Positions 10,827 to 16,855 of a stretch of DNA of 64,000 bases are shown piece by piece (positions within the stretch are counted from its first letter, which is position 1; every line of letters begins with the position of its first letter). Source of the DNA: Novosphingobium beihaiense (lineage in GTDB: Bacteria > Pseudomonadota > Alphaproteobacteria > Sphingomonadales > Sphingomonadaceae); assembly GCF_022832375.1 (NCBI RefSeq), contig NZ_JALHLG010000007.1, forward strand, positions 248,001 through 312,000. The letters are read 5' to 3'. A model generated the notes under the pieces. It was not told the DNA's origin. It saw nothing but the letters and a program-made list of their open reading frames with translations, and did not search any database. A program made the translations under genes and the position numbers.

Positions 10827-11525
10827 ATGGCCCAAACTCCCGCCCGCGTATCACAGGAAATCATCCGCGCCGCCCGCCGCCAGCGCGCCGCCCGGCTCTA
10901 CAACGCCCGCAAGGAGCGCTGGCGCTTCCGCCTGCGCCGCATCCGCCGCGCGTTCTTCGCGCTCTCGGGCATCTGGATCGCCACGCTGGTGACGGCGCTG
11001 GTGCTCGGCGGCATTTCGTTCATGGCGGGAATGCTCTCGATCCTGCTGGGCATCGCGGTGTTCGTGATGCTCTCGATCTACCCGGCGGCCCCGCGCACCC
11101 ATGCCGGGGATCTGGAAAGCGCGAGCCTGCCCGAACTGGCAGGCTCGGCCGAACTGTGGCTGGAAGGCAAGCGCCGCGCGCTGCCCAATGCGGCGGTCGA
11201 TGCCATAGACATGATCGGCGTGCGCCTCGAACAGATCGCCCCGCAGCTCGCCGCGATGGAGGAGACCGGCCCGGCCGCGCGCGAAGTGCGCAAGCTGTTG
11301 ACCGAGCATCTGCCCGGGCTGGTGGACAGCTACACCCGTATTCCCGCCGCGCTGCGCAGCAAACCGGGCGTCAGCGGCGCCAGCCCGTCCGAGCAGCTTG
11401 TGGATGGCCTCAGCGTCATTTCCGACGAAATCGAGGCAATGAGCCTCGACCTCTCGCGGAACGACATCGACGCGCTGGCCACGCGCAACCGTTTCCTTGA
11501 AACCAAGTACGTCGATCGTGATTGA
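10827..11525 (+). CDS. XpaC-like (5-bromo-4-chloroindolyl phosphate hydrolysis) family membrane protein
   Basis: A 232-residue protein. A very basic N-terminus (residues 8-40, rich in Arg) is followed by two adjacent membrane segments (about 45-85: FFALSGIWIATLVTALVLGG and FMAGMLSILLGIAVFVML). A helical cytoplasmic domain follows, with LPNAAVDAIDMIGVRLEQI. This matches the XpaC architecture and its usual place beside TelA. An in-frame ATG-less extension upstream runs through the repeat; ATG 10827, with GGAGG about eleven bases upstream, is the better start. Enzymatic activity is doubtful; the family name comes from an indirect phenotype. Confidence 0.82.
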   Translation: MAQTPARVSQEIIRAARRQRAARLYNARKERWRFRLRRIRRAFFALSGIWIATLVTALVLGGISFMAGMLSILLGIAVFVMLSIYPAAPRTHAGDLESASLPELAGSAELWLEGKRRALPNAAVDAIDMIGVRLEQIAPQLAAMEETGPAAREVRKLLTEHLPGLVDSYTRIPAALRSKPGVSGASPSEQLVDGLSVISDEIEAMSLDLSRNDIDALATRNRFLETKYVDRD

Positions 11526-12162
11526 GCTGCTGACCGAGCCGGGAAATATGCCGTTCTCGGTGGCGCTGGGCGTGGTGGCGCTGCTCGCCGTGCTGCAACT
11601 GGCGGGCCTCGGCGATCTGCTCGGGGCCGATCTCGATGCGGATGTGGATGTCGGAGTCGATGTCGATCACGATCTGGCGGTCGATGCGGGGCTGCTCTCG
11701 CTGATCGGCGTGGGCCGCATCCCGTTCATGATGTGGCTGATGATCCTGCTGTCGCTCTTCGGCGTGATCGGCCTCGCCGGGCAGCACTTTCTGGAAGCGC
11801 TCACCGGCGCGCCATGGTCCGCCTGGCTGGTGAGCGCGGGCGCAGCCCTGGTCGCGCTGCCCGCCACGGGCGCGATATCCCGCCCGCTCGGCCGGGTGCT
11901 GCCCAAGGACGAGACCACCGCCATCAACGTTGGTGCGCTCGTCGGGCGCGAGGCGGAAGTGGTGATCGGCACCGCTACGCCGGGCAATCCGGCGCGCGCC
12001 AAAGTTACCGACCACTTCGGGCAGGTGCACTACGTGATGCTGGAACCGGACAATGCGGACCAGCGCTTCGTCCAGAACGAAAAGGTGCTGCTGGTGCGGC
12101 GCGAGGGCGAACTGTTCAAGGCTATCGCGCGCGGGGATCACTATTTGCCGAAGCTGGATTGA
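11518..12162 (+). CDS. YqiJ-like (OB-fold) membrane protein, flotillin partner
   Basis: About 214 residues from GTG 11518, overlapping the previous stop by eight bases; ATG 11548 is an alternative start. There are three membrane segments: VALGVVALLAVLQLAGLG, MWLMILLSLFGVIGLAG and WLVSAGAALVALPATGA. Between the first two is an Asp/Val-rich stretch (LDADVDVGVDVDHDL). The C-terminal 80 residues form an NfeD-like OB-fold (VNVGALVGREAEVVIGTATPG, VLLVRREGELFKAI). Proteins of this kind accompany flotillins, as YqiJ accompanies YqiK in E. coli, and the flotillin here is at 13747. Membrane-domain organisation is the likely role. Confidence 0.82.
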   Translation: MIELLTEPGNMPFSVALGVVALLAVLQLAGLGDLLGADLDADVDVGVDVDHDLAVDAGLLSLIGVGRIPFMMWLMILLSLFGVIGLAGQHFLEALTGAPWSAWLVSAGAALVALPATGAISRPLGRVLPKDETTAINVGALVGREAEVVIGTATPGNPARAKVTDHFGQVHYVMLEPDNADQRFVQNEKVLLVRREGELFKAIARGDHYLPKLD

Positions 12163-12257
12163 AGGCAGCAAGCAGAAGCTTCGATTGGATCTTCTCCTGC
12201 CTGCATCTGCATTTTGGGTGGTAAGCGCACGCAGCGCAACCTAGTTAGGCAGACCAT

Positions 12258-12542
12258 ATGCGCACCAACCGGACCTTTTATGCCTTCGATGCAGTGTGGC
12301 GCTTCCTGTTGCAGGTATATCTCTGGATCAGCATATTTATCTGCTTGCTGGGAGCATGGGGGATTGGCGTTGTTTCGCAAGGAGAGAATGCGAAGTTCGT
12401 AAGTGCAGCGCTCATCCTGTTCGCCGGACTGGGAGTGGCGTTTAGTCGCTCAGTGCGACATATTCAGAATCCTCGCTGGTGGCACTGGGGCTTGGGGGTA
12501 GTCCTAATTGCACCAGCGGTTCTGTTGGCCGTGAAGAGATAG
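12258..12542 (+). CDS. Small hypothetical membrane protein
   Basis: 94 residues with three probable membrane helices: FLLQVYLWISIFICLLGAWG, FVSAALILFAGLGVAF and HWGLGVVLIAPAVLLAV. A WW pair lies near residue 75. I do not recognise a family. Base composition is lower in GC than the flanking genes, and only a weak TTAGG lies upstream. It sits inside the telA-flotillin cluster, in what may be an inserted segment (12163-13690). Confidence 0.5.
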   Translation: MRTNRTFYAFDAVWRFLLQVYLWISIFICLLGAWGIGVVSQGENAKFVSAALILFAGLGVAFSRSVRHIQNPRWWHWGLGVVLIAPAVLLAVKR

Positions 12543-12628
12543 CTTCATTGACCTGTGGAATGGCGGCAATGTCGGGCTGCCAGTCAGTAGAGGCTTTTCT
12601 CCTTGTTCTGCGATAGCTGGCGTGTTTA

Positions 12629-13120
12629 TTGGCGTATGTGCGATTAAACATCAGGCGATACGGTTGCGTGCTGGCTCTTGCCCTTCCGGTCGCGATATTC
12701 TTGTTGGTAGCTGGACCAATCCAGTGGTGGCAGCATTACCAAAGCTGGTCTCATCTTTCGAAGGATGAACTCATCGAATCCGCGAACTGGTACATCGCTA
12801 ACCGTGCACCGGGCAACGACGCCTGCATCTTCGCAGTTGAATGCAAAGATGGCCGAGCTCGTCTGAAACTGATCAAGACACTCGACGAGTGGGACTTCGA
12901 GGCATCGAAGCAGGCAGCTTGGGATCGTAAGTTCAAGGATGTTTGCCAAGGTCGGACTGCAAACTTCGCGTTAGAGGTGGAGCCGACAATCCGCAAAGTC
13001 AAACGACCGAAAAAGGACGCAAACGGGCTATTTGGTCATTCTACAACGATCGGTTCGTCCCGGCCAGAACTAGATTTGAACTTGCCGCCTTTAGCGAGAT
13101 TGAGCCTGAGCCTTGTCTAA
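12629..13120 (+). CDS. Hypothetical protein with N-terminal membrane anchor
   Basis: 163 residues from a TTG at 12629, or shorter from GTG 12638. One membrane anchor at residues 13-32 (VLALALPVAIFLLVAGPIQW) is followed by a hydrophilic domain with three cysteines (DACIFAVECKDG and FKDVCQGR). The domain seems ordered up to about residue 125; the final stretch is low-complexity. No ribosome binding site is obvious and I do not recognise the family. The stop falls inside a perfect palindrome, AACCGCATATGCGGTT. Confidence 0.42.
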   Translation: MAYVRLNIRRYGCVLALALPVAIFLLVAGPIQWWQHYQSWSHLSKDELIESANWYIANRAPGNDACIFAVECKDGRARLKLIKTLDEWDFEASKQAAWDRKFKDVCQGRTANFALEVEPTIRKVKRPKKDANGLFGHSTTIGSSRPELDLNLPPLARLSLSLV

Positions 13121-13232
13121 CCGCATATGCGGTTACAACGCGCTCAAGATTGAATGGTAAACCCTAGCTCCTTCAGTCGAGCGACGTCCATTTTGTCGTC
13201 GTCTCCGTAAAGTCCGCTCTAGCGCATATGCG
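13119..13232. repeat. Two CGCATATGCG palindromes 101 bp apart
   Basis: A perfect 16-bp palindrome AACCGCATATGCGGTT is at 13119-13134, and its 10-bp core CGCATATGCG recurs at 13223-13232. These could be protein-binding sites; the function is not evident. Confidence 0.45.
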
Positions 13233-13404
13233 GCTTCACGCCGCCACAGACTTCGGCTGCCGTTGCCTTTGCGACTTTCTGGCTAGTGATGCATTGGAGT
13301 CTAAGCCACGATTAAATTTCCGCAATCTCCAAATGCAATCGACTCGCAATAATCCGGTTTTCCTATGAGCCGCCCCCAGCATCCGCTATACCACTCAAAG
13401 ACAA

Positions 13405-13444
13405 GATGAAATCGAGAGCGGGGCGCTGTGCCGTCCGCAGCATC
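13405..13444 (+). ncRNA. Hairpin-forming 40-nt motif, copy 1
   Basis: The motif starts GATGAAATCGAGAGCGGGGC and ends GCCGTCCGCAGCATC. It can fold with GCGG/CCGC and GGC/GCC stems around a GCTGT loop, closed by GATG/CATC. It matches the copy at 13693-13732 at 37 of 40 bases. Confidence 0.5.
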
Positions 13445-13604
13445 TTGGTTCGGAGAAGCGGAAGATGAGCGCCAGTATCGAACGCGGTTCGTGCAGGCTG
13501 CGATCCTGTTTTATGGCGCGGTGACCGTTCCGGTCCTGCCGCGACTTCAAATAACTGCCAGCATGGTTCTGGACTTCAAGCCGGTGAGGGCGGGTTTCGT
13601 CTGA
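13428..13604 (+). CDS. Possible 58-residue small protein
   Basis: A GTG-initiated frame that starts inside the first hairpin motif and encodes a short protein with a hydrophobic middle (FVQAAILFYGAVTVPVLP). It has no good ribosome binding site. It may be the remains of a gene once served by the duplicated leader. This is weak support only. Confidence 0.22.
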   Translation: MPSAASWFGEAEDERQYRTRFVQAAILFYGAVTVPVLPRLQITASMVLDFKPVRAGFV

Positions 13605-13692
13605 AATCTGTCTGACGCCATGCGCCCTTGCCGGGCGCGGGAAAGCGATCCGAGGTCATTCAAGCTTAACTGCGTGCGCGCATTTGAGTTGG

Positions 13693-13732
13693 GATGAAAT
13701 CGAGAGCGGGGCATAGTGCCGTCCGCAGCATC
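13693..13732 (+). ncRNA. Hairpin-forming 40-nt motif, copy 2, in the flotillin leader
   Basis: Same sequence as 13405-13444 except that the loop reads ATAGT instead of GCTGT. It ends 14 bases before the flotillin ATG. An ATG within it (13694) opens an 18-codon frame, MKSRAGHSAVRSIPLKEK, whose TGA ends just before the flotillin start, so a coupled leader peptide is also possible. Confidence 0.5.
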
Positions 13733-13746
13733 CCCTTGAAGGAGAA

Positions 13747-15468
13747 ATGAAAATGGACGGCCTTTCGAACGGCCTATTCGGCATCGGCATCCTTGCCGGT
13801 GGCATTGTGATCCTGCTGATCGTGTTCGGCGTGATGCTGGCGCGGCTCTACCGGCGCGCGAGCAAGGAAATCGCGTTCGTGCGAACGGGCATCGGCGGCG
13901 AAAAGGTCGTGATGAATGGCGGCGCTCTGGTGCTGCCGATCTTTCACGAGACGATGCCGGTCAATATGAACACCGTGCGTCTGGCCGTGGAACGCAAGAA
14001 CGGGGACGCCCTGATCACGCTCGACCGCTTGCGGATCGACGTGAAGGCGGAGTTCTACGTGCGTGTCCGTCCCGATGCGGGCGCCATTGCCATGGCCGCG
14101 CAGACGCTCGGCGCGCGCACGATGCACCCCGAGGCGCTGAAGGATCTTGTCGAGGGCAAGTTCGTGGACGCGCTGCGCTCGGTCGCGGCGGGGATGTCGA
14201 TGAACCAGCTTCACGAACAGCGCGCGGACTTCGTGCAGAAAGTGCAGCAGGTATCCGCTGCGGACCTGGCGATGAACGGTCTGGAACTGGAATCGGTCTC
14301 GCTGACCGGCCTCGACCAGACGTCGATCGAGCACTTCAATGCGAACAACGCGTTTGACGCGGAAGGTCTGACCAAGCTGACCGAGCAGATCGAGCTGCGC
14401 AAGAAAACGCGCAACGACATCGAGCAGGACACGCGCGTGCAGATGGAGACCAAGAACCTCGAAGCCGACCGGCAGTCGCTGCAGATCCAGCGCGATAACG
14501 AGTTCGCGCGTCTGGAACAGGAACGCGAAGTCGAAATGCGCCGGGCCGAGCAGGCAGCGGAAGTTGCCCGCGAACAGGCCGCACGCGGCCGCGAGGCGGA
14601 CGAAGCCCGCATCGAGGCCAAGCAGCAGGTTGATTCGCGCCAGATCGAGGCGGACCGGACAGTCCAGGAAGCCCAGATCGCACAGGCTCAGGCGGTCGAG
14701 CTGGCCCGTCAGGAGCAGCAGATCGCGATCCAGAACAAGAGCCGCGAGGAAAGCCAGGCCAAGGCCGAGGCGGACGAGGCCCGCGCCAAGGCGGTGGCTG
14801 CCGAGGAACAGGTCGCGACCAGCCGCGAAACCGAAGTGGCCGAGCGTCTGAAGAGGATCGAGCTGATCGAGGCGGCCAAGGAGGCCGAACGTCAGGCGAT
14901 TTCGGTCAAGGTCGAAGCCGAGGCCGAAAAGGAAGCTGCATCCAACCGCGCCCAGGCCGCAAGGCTGGAAGCGGAAGGTGAGGCCGAAGCCGAGAAGCTG
15001 CGTGCCGAAGCGGCGCGTGTGCGTTTCGAGGTCGAGGCTGCCGGTCAGCGCGCGATCAACGAGGCAGCGAACCTGCTGTCTTCGGATCAGGTCTCGCTGC
15101 AGATGAAGATGGCGCTGCTGAAAGTCTTGCCCGAAGTCGTGCGCGAGAGCGTGCGGCCGATGGAAGCGATCGACTCGATCAAGATCGTGCAGGTCGATGG
15201 CCTCACGCAAAAGGGCGGCGCAGCGGGCGGCACCGGGGCTCCCGTCGGAGGCTCGGGCAACCTCGCCAACGATGCGGTGAGCGCAGCGCTCGCCTACCGC
15301 GCACAGGCGCCGGTGATCGACGGGTTGATGAAGGAACTCGGCCTCGACGGCGCTTCGCTGGCCACGATGGTCAAGGGCGCGGTGGAGCCGCAGGTTCCGC
15401 AAGCCCCTGAAGCGGCGGACAACGACGCGTCAGGGGATGAGGTTTACAGCCCCAAGACGGTGAACTGA
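13747..15468 (+). CDS. Flotillin family (SPFH/band 7) membrane scaffold protein
   Basis: 573 residues. An N-terminal membrane segment (about 10-31: ILAGGIVILLIVFGVMLARLY) precedes the SPFH/band 7 domain (about 40-210: FVRTGIGGEKVVMNGGALVLPIF is diagnostic). A long charged coiled coil rich in EAE/RAE repeats (about 220-440) and the C-terminal flotillin region follow. Its length and layout match E. coli YqiK-type flotillins, which form oligomeric membrane microdomain scaffolds. GAAGGAG sits nine bases before the ATG. A leader with a duplicated hairpin precedes it and a strong terminator follows. Its partner is the YqiJ-like protein at 11518. Confidence 0.95.
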   Translation: MKMDGLSNGLFGIGILAGGIVILLIVFGVMLARLYRRASKEIAFVRTGIGGEKVVMNGGALVLPIFHETMPVNMNTVRLAVERKNGDALITLDRLRIDVKAEFYVRVRPDAGAIAMAAQTLGARTMHPEALKDLVEGKFVDALRSVAAGMSMNQLHEQRADFVQKVQQVSAADLAMNGLELESVSLTGLDQTSIEHFNANNAFDAEGLTKLTEQIELRKKTRNDIEQDTRVQMETKNLEADRQSLQIQRDNEFARLEQEREVEMRRAEQAAEVAREQAARGREADEARIEAKQQVDSRQIEADRTVQEAQIAQAQAVELARQEQQIAIQNKSREESQAKAEADEARAKAVAAEEQVATSRETEVAERLKRIELIEAAKEAERQAISVKVEAEAEKEAASNRAQAARLEAEGEAEAEKLRAEAARVRFEVEAAGQRAINEAANLLSSDQVSLQMKMALLKVLPEVVRESVRPMEAIDSIKIVQVDGLTQKGGAAGGTGAPVGGSGNLANDAVSAALAYRAQAPVIDGLMKELGLDGASLATMVKGAVEPQVPQAPEAADNDASGDEVYSPKTVN

Positions 15469-15476
15469 ACGAAAGG

Positions 15477-15508
15477 AAGCCCGGGAGAGACGATCTCCCG
15501 GGCTTTTC
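15477..15508 (+). terminator. Intrinsic terminator after the flotillin gene
   Basis: A perfect 12-bp stem AAGCCCGGGAGA/TCTCCCGGGCTT with a five-base loop (GACGA) runs into TTTT. It lies nine bases after the flotillin stop. Confidence 0.9.
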
Positions 15509-15526
15509 CATTCCTCGCAGACTGCT

Positions 15527-15871
15527 CTATCTGCCCAGCTTGCTACGGTTGCTGGCCCGGAGAATGTCCTCCATGTCCATGATACAGTCACGCCCCTTGA
15601 TTCCGTCTTCGGTCTTATCCTCGGGATCGGCTTCGAAGTGCACGCGCATCTGCTCAGACAGTTCGGCGAGTTTCTGGTAGTTTTCTTCGCCCACTTTCTT
15701 GCGAATGCTCTTCAGACCTTCGTTTAGAGCGAAGAATTCTGTGTCGATGCTTTGTCCGGGGAAATGACCGCTATCATCTTCAAATTTCGGTGAATGGAGG
15801 ATCATCCAACCCAGAAGATCCATCAATTCACTGATGCTCTTGGGGATGTAGGGAGCATATGGCTTCTGCAT
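15527..15871 (-). CDS. Hypothetical small acidic protein, immunity-protein-like
   Basis: 114 residues, soluble, acidic and helical: YIPKSISELMDLLGWMILHS, then FFALNEGLKSIRKKVGEENY and ending MEDILRASNRSKLGR. ATG 15871 has AAGG eight bases upstream; ATG 15877 is also possible and would overlap the upstream frame as ATGA. Size and acidity recall immunity proteins of polymorphic toxin cassettes. The idea gains weight from the short fragment immediately upstream and from a second degraded copy of this gene at 16224-16378. I cannot name an immunity family. Confidence 0.6.
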   Translation of the reverse strand: MQKPYAPYIPKSISELMDLLGWMILHSPKFEDDSGHFPGQSIDTEFFALNEGLKSIRKKVGEENYQKLAELSEQMRVHFEADPEDKTEDGIKGRDCIMDMEDILRASNRSKLGR

Positions 15872-15873
15872 GT

Positions 15874-16092
15874 TCATCGCCTTGTCCGGGAAATGACGAC
15901 GTGTCTCAGAGCGCGAACGCTTCCGGGGGCGAATGTGAATCGGCCGTTGCGGGGATCATGATATGGATTGAACTTGCGCTCGGTTCTCGACTGGAAGAGA
16001 TGCGGCGAAAGCCGTCTTCCCGTTCTGAGATAGTGCTCGAATGCGAGACATTCGGCGGATTGACGCTCCATCGAGGGAGAGTGATTGGGCAT
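15874..16092 (-). CDS. Truncated toxin-like or secreted-protein N-terminal fragment
   Basis: 72 residues: MPNHSPSMERQSAECLAFEH, an LRTGRRL stretch, then KFNPYHDPRNGRFTFAPGS and a short tail (RALRHVVISRTRR). The KFNPxHDPxNGRFTF motif is one I associate with N-terminal parts of larger toxin-like or lytic proteins in sphingomonads, where a glycine/proline-rich region and an effector domain would follow. Here the frame stops at once, so the effector part is missing. It is directly upstream of the immunity-like gene on the same strand. The call rests on one motif and on context. Confidence 0.4.
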   Translation of the reverse strand: MPNHSPSMERQSAECLAFEHYLRTGRRLSPHLFQSRTERKFNPYHDPRNGRFTFAPGSVRALRHVVISRTRR

Positions 16093-16223
16093 TGTTTATC
16101 CCTTGTTGTTCAATTGGAACATTAGGGGAACAAATCCTGCAATTCAAGTAATGTAACAATAATGGCAAATCTGTCGCACACATCTGCGCGATCGATGGGT
16201 GAGAGCGTCGTTCGCCGTAATCA

Positions 16224-16378
16224 TCACCGCCTGCGGCGGTTCCTGGCTTTGAAAATGTCCTCTCTATGTCCTTGATCTCGCCGACGCCCCGGGGGATATC
16301 AGACTTGTTTGTTCGAGTTGACGAATTGAGTGTCCCGTTATTTCTGTCGGAGTTCGGTTCAATTTTGCTATTGAACAA
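16224..16378 (-). pseudogene. Degraded, frameshifted copy of the immunity-like gene
   Basis: On the minus strand this region aligns at base level with the 3' end of the gene at 15527. Shared blocks include GGGGCGT, ATCA.GGACAT.GAG, GACATT.TC and GCCAG.AACCG, all in order and ending at a stop. An extra AG after GACATAGAG shifts the frame; without it the tail reads KDIEDIFKARNRRRR, matching MDMEDILRASNRSKLGR. Similarity fades upstream of about 16375. Confidence 0.6.
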
Positions 16379-16483
16379 TATCCAAAGTCGCTACGTTCTA
16401 ATCGCCGGGGCGGAAAATATTAAGCAGGGCTCCTGTGTTGGACGGGTAGGAAAGGCTGCAACAGGCGGGGAGAGAGGCTAAAT

Positions 16484-16855
16484 ATGCCGGATAAAACCTA
16501 CAAGATCCTGCTGTTCATGAAGCGCAGGCCGGATATCTCCGTCGAGCAGTTCCGCGACTATTACGAAACGCAGCACGCGCCTTTGGCGGAAAAGTACTCC
16601 CGCGGCGTGAAGCGCTATATCCGCCGTTACATCGATCCGCAGCCGCATCCAGAGACCGGCGCGTTTACCGATGGGCCCGATGTCATCACTGAACTGTGGT
16701 TCGATGACGAGAAGATCTATCGCGGCACGCTCGCCTATATCACCTCCAGCCTGATGCCGGAGGAGATCATCGCGGACGAGAAGAACCTGTTCGACAGGTT
16801 TTCCTTCCGTATCGCTACGGTGGTAGAGTGCGAGTCCCCCGTTCAGGAAGGCTGA
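16484..16855 (+). CDS. EthD domain protein
   Basis: 123 residues of the EthD/dimeric alpha-beta barrel type. It opens KTYKILLFMKRRPDISVEQF with the family HAPL motif (YYETQHAPLAEKY) and ends with an aromatic-rich strand region (FDRFSFRIATVVE). EthD proteins act in oxidative catabolism of ethers and aromatics, or as small monooxygenase/decarboxylase-like enzymes. It is convergent with the SDR gene, six bases away, and next to the molybdenum hydroxylase operon, which suggests a shared catabolic pathway. Substrate unknown. Confidence 0.85.
   Translation: MPDKTYKILLFMKRRPDISVEQFRDYYETQHAPLAEKYSRGVKRYIRRYIDPQPHPETGAFTDGPDVITELWFDDEKIYRGTLAYITSSLMPEEIIADEKNLFDRFSFRIATVVECESPVQEG

Follow-up and report, generated by a model that had tools for sequence, protein, structure and literature searches.

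Several kinds of leader RNA that have been described in bacteria resemble, in one respect or another, the leader that precedes the flotillin gene of Novosphingobium beihaiense. Riboswitch-type translational leaders are structured, carry a conserved internal loop and core, and use alternative pairing by the Shine-Dalgarno sequence. Guanidine-II riboswitches consist of two similar hairpins in tandem before one gene, and the leader operators of thrS and ribosomal-protein genes have a hairpin directly upstream of the Shine-Dalgarno sequence and a repeated recognition element. Stem-loops of the ompA type lie close to the 5' end of the transcript, and 5'-terminal stem-loops are known mRNA stabilizers according to passages of PMC7509114; the first hairpin of the flotillin leader would have a similar location, judging from the position of a candidate -10 element.

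We analyzed a 64,000-nucleotide stretch of the N. beihaiense genome (hereafter the window), in which a 40-nt hairpin had been predicted from the sequence to be duplicated upstream of the flotillin gene. The paired hairpins probably form a previously undescribed gene-control element, located in a long, conserved untranslated leader of flotillin, a membrane-scaffold gene. Our literature search found no precedent for control of flotillin by a structured leader RNA, and this result together with the Rfam searches reported below indicates that the element is probably undescribed. We know of no report that flotillin binds RNA.

Results

Organization of the flotillin leader

Both copies of the repeat, designated hairpins A (13405-13444) and B (13693-13732), fit GATGAAATCGAGAGCGGGGC-N5-GCCGTCCGCAGCATC exactly. 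As stated in the original prediction, they are identical at 37 of 40 positions, and all three differences fall in the loops GCTGT (13425-13429) and ATAGT (13713-13717). The pattern occurs twice in the window, where 100 shuffles gave an expectation of 0, and in the whole 4.5 Mb genome it is restricted to these two copies; when the genome was searched with a covariance model, the third-best match had an E value of 2.2. In each copy the outer stem (P1) leads through an asymmetric internal loop to a GCGG/CCGC stem, which is followed by a 2-base bulge, a GGC/GCC stem and a 5-base loop. Pairing continues beyond the 40 nt in A (CAAGATG/CATCTTG, 13402-13447) and in B (GGGATG/CATCCC, 13691-13734). The outer flanks of the two hairpins are unlike and yet each is self-complementary (CAA/TTG and GG/CC), and thus they differ in a compensatory manner. 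Since plus-strand folds were only mildly better than those of shuffled sequences (z scores of -1.1 and -2.1), support for the structure comes from comparison rather than from folding energy.

The leader contains, in order, a promoter box, a TATA-like element, hairpin A, a Shine-Dalgarno sequence, a short ORF, a long hairpin designated X, hairpin B, a second Shine-Dalgarno sequence and flotillin (Table 1), with A and B each directly ahead of a Shine-Dalgarno sequence and start codon. Flotillin has two in-frame starts, one at 13753 (8 nt past the GGAG) and one at 13747 (2 nt past it, the start given in the ORF list); the former looks likelier, and relatives align at 13753. Between yqiJ and the box the window has about 1.2 kb of extra DNA (12163-13333), where close relatives have about 100 bp, and the small ORFs in this interval had no Pfam match.

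Table 1. Features of the flotillin locus, in window positions.
Feature	Positions	Strand	Evidence
yqiJ-like gene, upstream neighbor	11497..12162	+	Pfam YqiJ_OB, YqiJ_N
Near-invariant 27-nt promoter box TGCAATCGACTCGCAATAATCCGGTTT	13334..13360	+	Single occurrence in own genome
TATA-like -10 candidate (TATACC)	13387..13392	+	TATA-like letters here in aligned relatives
Hairpin A (copy 1, entire outer stem P1 included)	13402..13447	+	P1 covariation, 16 genomes; core AGAGCGGGGC in 16/16
Shine-Dalgarno-like GGAG behind hairpin A	13452..13455	+	GGAG there in 16/16
Short ORF following hairpin A, 19 aa	13465..13524	+	ORF of 5-19 aa there in 16/16
Long hairpin X, 3' strand overlapping B 5' strand	13651..13702	+	Covariation, extension pairs, folds
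Hairpin B (copy 2, entire outer stem included)	13691..13734	+	97.1% of cells paired, 16 genomes
Flotillin Shine-Dalgarno GGAG	13741..13744	+	Sequence; conserved behind B
Flotillin gene	13753..15468	+	Pfam Flot and Band_7; ORF; likely start 13753

Distribution of the hairpin pair

A covariance model built from ten copies (R1) was used to search the genomes of 297 relatives (genomes and loci are given G and L numbers). The element was found in 14 of them, with both copies in 13 and only the second copy, at a looser threshold, in G135; five further genomes had weak single matches away from flotillin. Flotillin itself was matched at E 1e-60 or better in 45 of 195 genomes of the genus, and the upstream DNA was examined for 44 of these, G037 being left out. 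Both hairpins are present in 16 of the 44 upstream regions, two of which (G298 and G303) were added at this stage. The pair therefore recurs ahead of flotillin in 16 Novosphingobium genomes, with two copies each at a spacing of 227-327 nt, and in 14 of the 16 stretches examined yqiJ was found on the upstream side. Among the other upstream regions, a single one, that of G168, contains the promoter box and a similarly shaped hairpin that lacks the core, six have a yqiJ-flotillin gap of 151-153 bp without A or B, and in 21 the gap measures 31-64 bp, which is too short to hold the element. In the G168 stretch (L104) a tRNA gene lies upstream of flotillin at 2253-2335, and yqiJ was not found there. 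At loci L105-L110, where A and B are missing, flotillin is preceded by CCGGTTTT with a TATA-like stretch, and a G+C-rich hairpin unlike A and B lies ahead of the Shine-Dalgarno sequence; this arrangement is perhaps the ancestral single-hairpin leader.

With a second model built from all 32 copies (R2), nine of 396 genomes of the order matched at E 0.01, comprising three known members, G496 from another genus and five weak matches. In G496, copy B lies ahead of a flotillin gene whose product is 91% identical, the box has 0 mismatches and hairpin X is kept; the A-like hairpin of this genome has a different outer stem and a model score of 13.5 bits. An exact-pattern scan of 84,980 species genomes, from which records near the window were possibly left out, returned 11 stretches, ten from Novosphingobium and one from Sphingomonas sp. 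IC081. Copies thus exist in other genomes, and in the relatives the stems are kept, so that neither of these two checks refuted the original prediction. Weak model matches at nine loci (G004, G041, G101, G122, G222, G141, G369, G463 and G592) were set aside as chance since none has an adjoining flotillin gene. The one in G369 is antisense to a small ORF, with TelA-like and DUF-like genes (30-35% identity) upstream. A mobile repeat of the REP or MITE type was rejected, given two copies per genome at a single locus with no dispersed copies.

On a flotillin tree of 30 sequences, 15 of them with the pair, presence of the pair must have changed three times, and well-supported branches force two or more of these changes; therefore losses or regains of the pair must be assumed. 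A search of Rfam 15 with window positions 11000-16500 and loci L102, L103, L104 and L109 found no leader-RNA family above the gathering threshold; the only match at that level was the tRNA in L104.

Conservation and covariation of hairpins A and B

In an alignment of 16 sequences of copy A, 14 of them distinct, 98.0% of the cells are paired, and four of the seven P1 pairs have changed on both sides (13 cells). None of 500 shuffles reached these values for cells paired, cells changed or covariation score, whereas 101 of 500 did so for the number of pairs with a double change, which is not unusual, and for pair types the count was 330 of 500; because the sequences are mutually related, such shuffle tests overstate the significance of the covariation. 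When the alignment was placed in slid registers, only 34-68% of the cells were paired. Copy B is paired in 97.1% of cells, and taken alone across the 16 genomes it has no pair changed on both sides. Alignment of all 32 copies to the model, which leans towards the structure, gave 31 cells changed on both sides.

The non-canonical pairs identify the strand. There are 12, 6 and 36 G-U pairs in A, B and X versus 0, 2 and 1 A-C mismatches (54 versus 3 in total), and thus the structure belongs to a sense-strand RNA. All 16 copies of A and nine of the 16 copies of B have exactly the core AGAGCGGGGC. Of 209 fourfold-degenerate sites in flotillin, 44 are invariant among 15 genomes, and the core of A is conserved above synonymous sites. 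Every substitution in the 3' arm of B preserves pairing (CAUUCC, CGUCCC, CAUCCU), and copies of B with an altered core (in G031, G048 and G135) keep a paired stem. The proposal that the hairpins are a selected RNA structure is upheld by the compensatory changes in A and X, the strand-specific G-U pairs and the conservation of the core beyond synonymous sites, with B alone contributing no double change.

Hairpin X and its overlap with B

The 18 main pairs of X are formed in 95.7% of cells, and four of them have changed on both sides (11 cells); values as high were found in 0 of 500 shuffles for cells and score and in 5 of 500 for pairs. In 13 of the 16 genomes X takes the 5' arm of B as its 3' strand, and this strand continues into the internal loop of B. 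Because X and B use one strand in these 13 genomes, complete X and complete B are mutually exclusive there. A 16-nt duplication in G005, G048 and G303 allows X and B to form together, and so the exclusion is not universal. Across the 13 genomes, pair 5 of the X extension is C-G in five, U-A in five, U-G in one, A-U in one and unpaired in one. Extension pairs 3 and 4 are formed in 12 and 11 of the 13, whereas pairs 1, 2, 6 and 7 are formed in only 2, 8, 8 and 3. The double duty of the 5' arm of B in X may explain why that arm, unlike the corresponding arm of A, is nearly invariant.

Energy models for the genomes with the overlap preferred X over B (0.64-1.00 for the outer stem of X, 0.00-0.27 for the stem of B). 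When B was forced closed, the Shine-Dalgarno sequence became more accessible by at least 0.14 in 7 of the 13 genomes but not in the other 6. Consensus folds of the whole leader gave no further trusted long-range pairing. Between hairpin A and X, the leaders of three close relatives (L050, L051 and L053) share an identical TTATCCACA, which we take to be a DnaA-box-like motif.

The promoter box and its occurrence near suf genes

The box starts 75-78 nt ahead of the inner end of the 5' arm of P1 of hairpin A in all 16 genomes, and in the window the TATA-like element ends 9 nt before hairpin A. A consensus promoter scan found no sigma-70 promoter at the TATA-like element, which would fit an activator-dependent promoter. 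With up to two mismatches allowed, the box occurs once each in 17 of 195 genomes of the genus, namely the 16 with the hairpins and G168, and the window genome has no second box outside 13334-13360.

With three mismatches, 28 of 397 genomes of the family have a match. Downstream genes were examined for three of these, G705, G772 and G810, which represent two other genera (loci L155, L156 and L159). In each, TGCAAACGACTCGCAANAGTCGGGTTTT, which is the flotillin box with three changed letters, lies upstream of an Rrf2-type regulator and SufB-like genes. The G705 regulator is an Rrf2 protein by Pfam and falls just below the TIGR02944 cut-off; in G810, by NCBIfam, the regulator is above the cut-off of the SUF regulator TIGR02944 and the next gene is above that of SufB. 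A Pfam search with the 174-aa SufB-candidate fragment gave no match. Apart from two known cases, no flotillin gene was found beside the box in the 27 loci fetched. By eye, no motif in the available parts of two papers on iron regulators (PMC11475020, PMC3751524) matched the box. The recurrence of the box before predicted suf genes may reflect an iron, Fe-S or redox circuit, or a shared regulon.

Discussion

An obvious question is what the paired hairpins do for flotillin. As far as sequence comparison can tell, a conserved, covarying, sense-strand structure ahead of one gene is a leader RNA of the cis-regulatory kind. Our preferred reading, to which we assign a probability of roughly 0.52, is that it is a locus-specific, cis-acting leader RNA of flotillin, most likely acting on translation through a switch between X and B. 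A promoter upstream of A would start a transcript that has A at its extreme 5' end, followed by a ribosome-binding site, the short ORF, X, B and the flotillin ribosome-binding site. The long hairpin X would be the resting state. A factor that recognizes the A/B core, which may be a protein, a small molecule or a regulatory RNA, or any opening of X, would let B close, and closure of B would alter access to the adjoining flotillin Shine-Dalgarno sequence. Hairpin A may guard the 5' end as well as the short ORF's ribosome-binding site. The process controlled would be translation of flotillin, and perhaps mRNA stability as well. It is conceivable, if doubtful, that the leader is a two-copy RNA switch, in which one factor reads the same core in the ever-formed A and in the X-gated B to set the synthesis of flotillin, a membrane-microdomain protein, with a promoter operator that is common to suf genes of related genera. 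For the A/B core itself our searches yielded neither a ligand nor a protein or regulon.

An alternative is that the hairpins are mRNA stabilizers, with A acting at the 5' end and B, following cleavage farther upstream, ahead of the flotillin site, each slowing decay or keeping the ribosome-binding site clear without any switch. The short distance of about 10 nt from the TATA-like element to A would indeed put A near the 5' end, and the six flotillin genes that lack A and B and have a gap of 151-153 bp appear, from reading of the sequence, to have a promoter-like stretch and an unrelated G+C-rich hairpin. A plain stabilizer, however, needs neither a core that is invariant in all 16 genomes nor a duplicate of that core, and it leaves the covarying, overlapping X unexplained, which makes this alternative rather unlikely.

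The original prediction also raised a leader peptide, since both copies contain an ATG that opens an MKSRAG frame. Both frames are indeed present in the window, and the second stops at 13748-13750, 2 bases short of the likely flotillin ATG. Such a frame, or alternatively the short ORF that follows A, might be translationally coupled to flotillin. In copy A the MKSRAG frame lacks conservation among the 16 genomes, where it has no start codon in three and a GTG in one, begins with MKSRAG or VKSRAG in seven, and is lost or altered in nine, with the stem pairing retained where the frame is lost. For copy B the evidence is mixed. Nine of the 16 frames stop within 3 nt of the flotillin start or overlap it (G000, G002, G006, G135, G172, G182, G183, G211 and G212), and among the 12 copies free of indels changes are in excess at third positions (295 versus 181 and 121 at the other positions); of the codon differences, 158 are synonymous and 284 non-synonymous. 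Four of the 16, however, have indels, two frames run in frame into flotillin, three pass its start in another frame and two end early; the hairpin would contain or follow the MKSRAG start and its Shine-Dalgarno sequence. Distinct from MKSRAG is the short ORF, which has 5-19 aa and its own Shine-Dalgarno sequence and follows hairpin A in all 16 genomes and, by reading of the sequence, also in G168 and G496; six genomes have a common eight-codon form, but the sequence is not conserved across groups. On balance we regard a coupled leader peptide as unlikely. In six group I genomes, the region corresponding to window positions 13465-13530 contains a frame with a coding-like pattern of change, namely 66 third-position changes versus 37 and 35 at the other positions, and 58 synonymous and 52 non-synonymous differences; this frame has no common start codon.

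A further view is that the arrangement is an evolutionary by-product of one duplication of a hairpin and ribosome-binding site, where A and X matter and B is fading, retained chiefly because its 5' half is part of X. The lower count of exact cores in B than in A and the lack of double changes in the B stem are in keeping with this view, but the variants of the B 3' arm still pair and copies with an altered core (G031, G048 and G135) retain the stem, and we consider the by-product view improbable. A DNA-level element, such as an operator, a recombination site or a mobile repeat, would account for the inverted and direct repeats and the conserved letters, but is highly improbable given the excess of G-U pairs over A-C mismatches and the confinement of two copies to one locus per genome.

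If our reading of the leader as a cis-acting RNA is correct, flotillin synthesis in these bacteria is governed by a structured leader RNA, and the duplicated, sequence-conserved hairpin with its overlapping competitor offers a small, testable system. Binding of a protein or ligand by the core would make the latter a new RNA recognition motif, and the promoter box may provide a lead to the conditions of flotillin production, such as iron, Fe-S or redox stress.

While the flotillin leader has likenesses to each of the systems considered at the outset, it differs from all of them. Unlike riboswitch-type leaders it has no Rfam match or known ligand, it precedes one gene only, and its core is repeated at a distance of 227-327 nt. 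The thrS and ribosomal-protein leaders have a binding factor, whereas our searches yielded none for the flotillin leader. Compared with guanidine-II riboswitches, which are absent from its Rfam matches, it has variable loops, conserved stems and a far larger spacing between the hairpins. In contrast to the ompA-type stem-loops, as presented in portions of PMC7509114, the flotillin leader has an invariant core, a second copy of the hairpin, and a competing structure, hairpin X.
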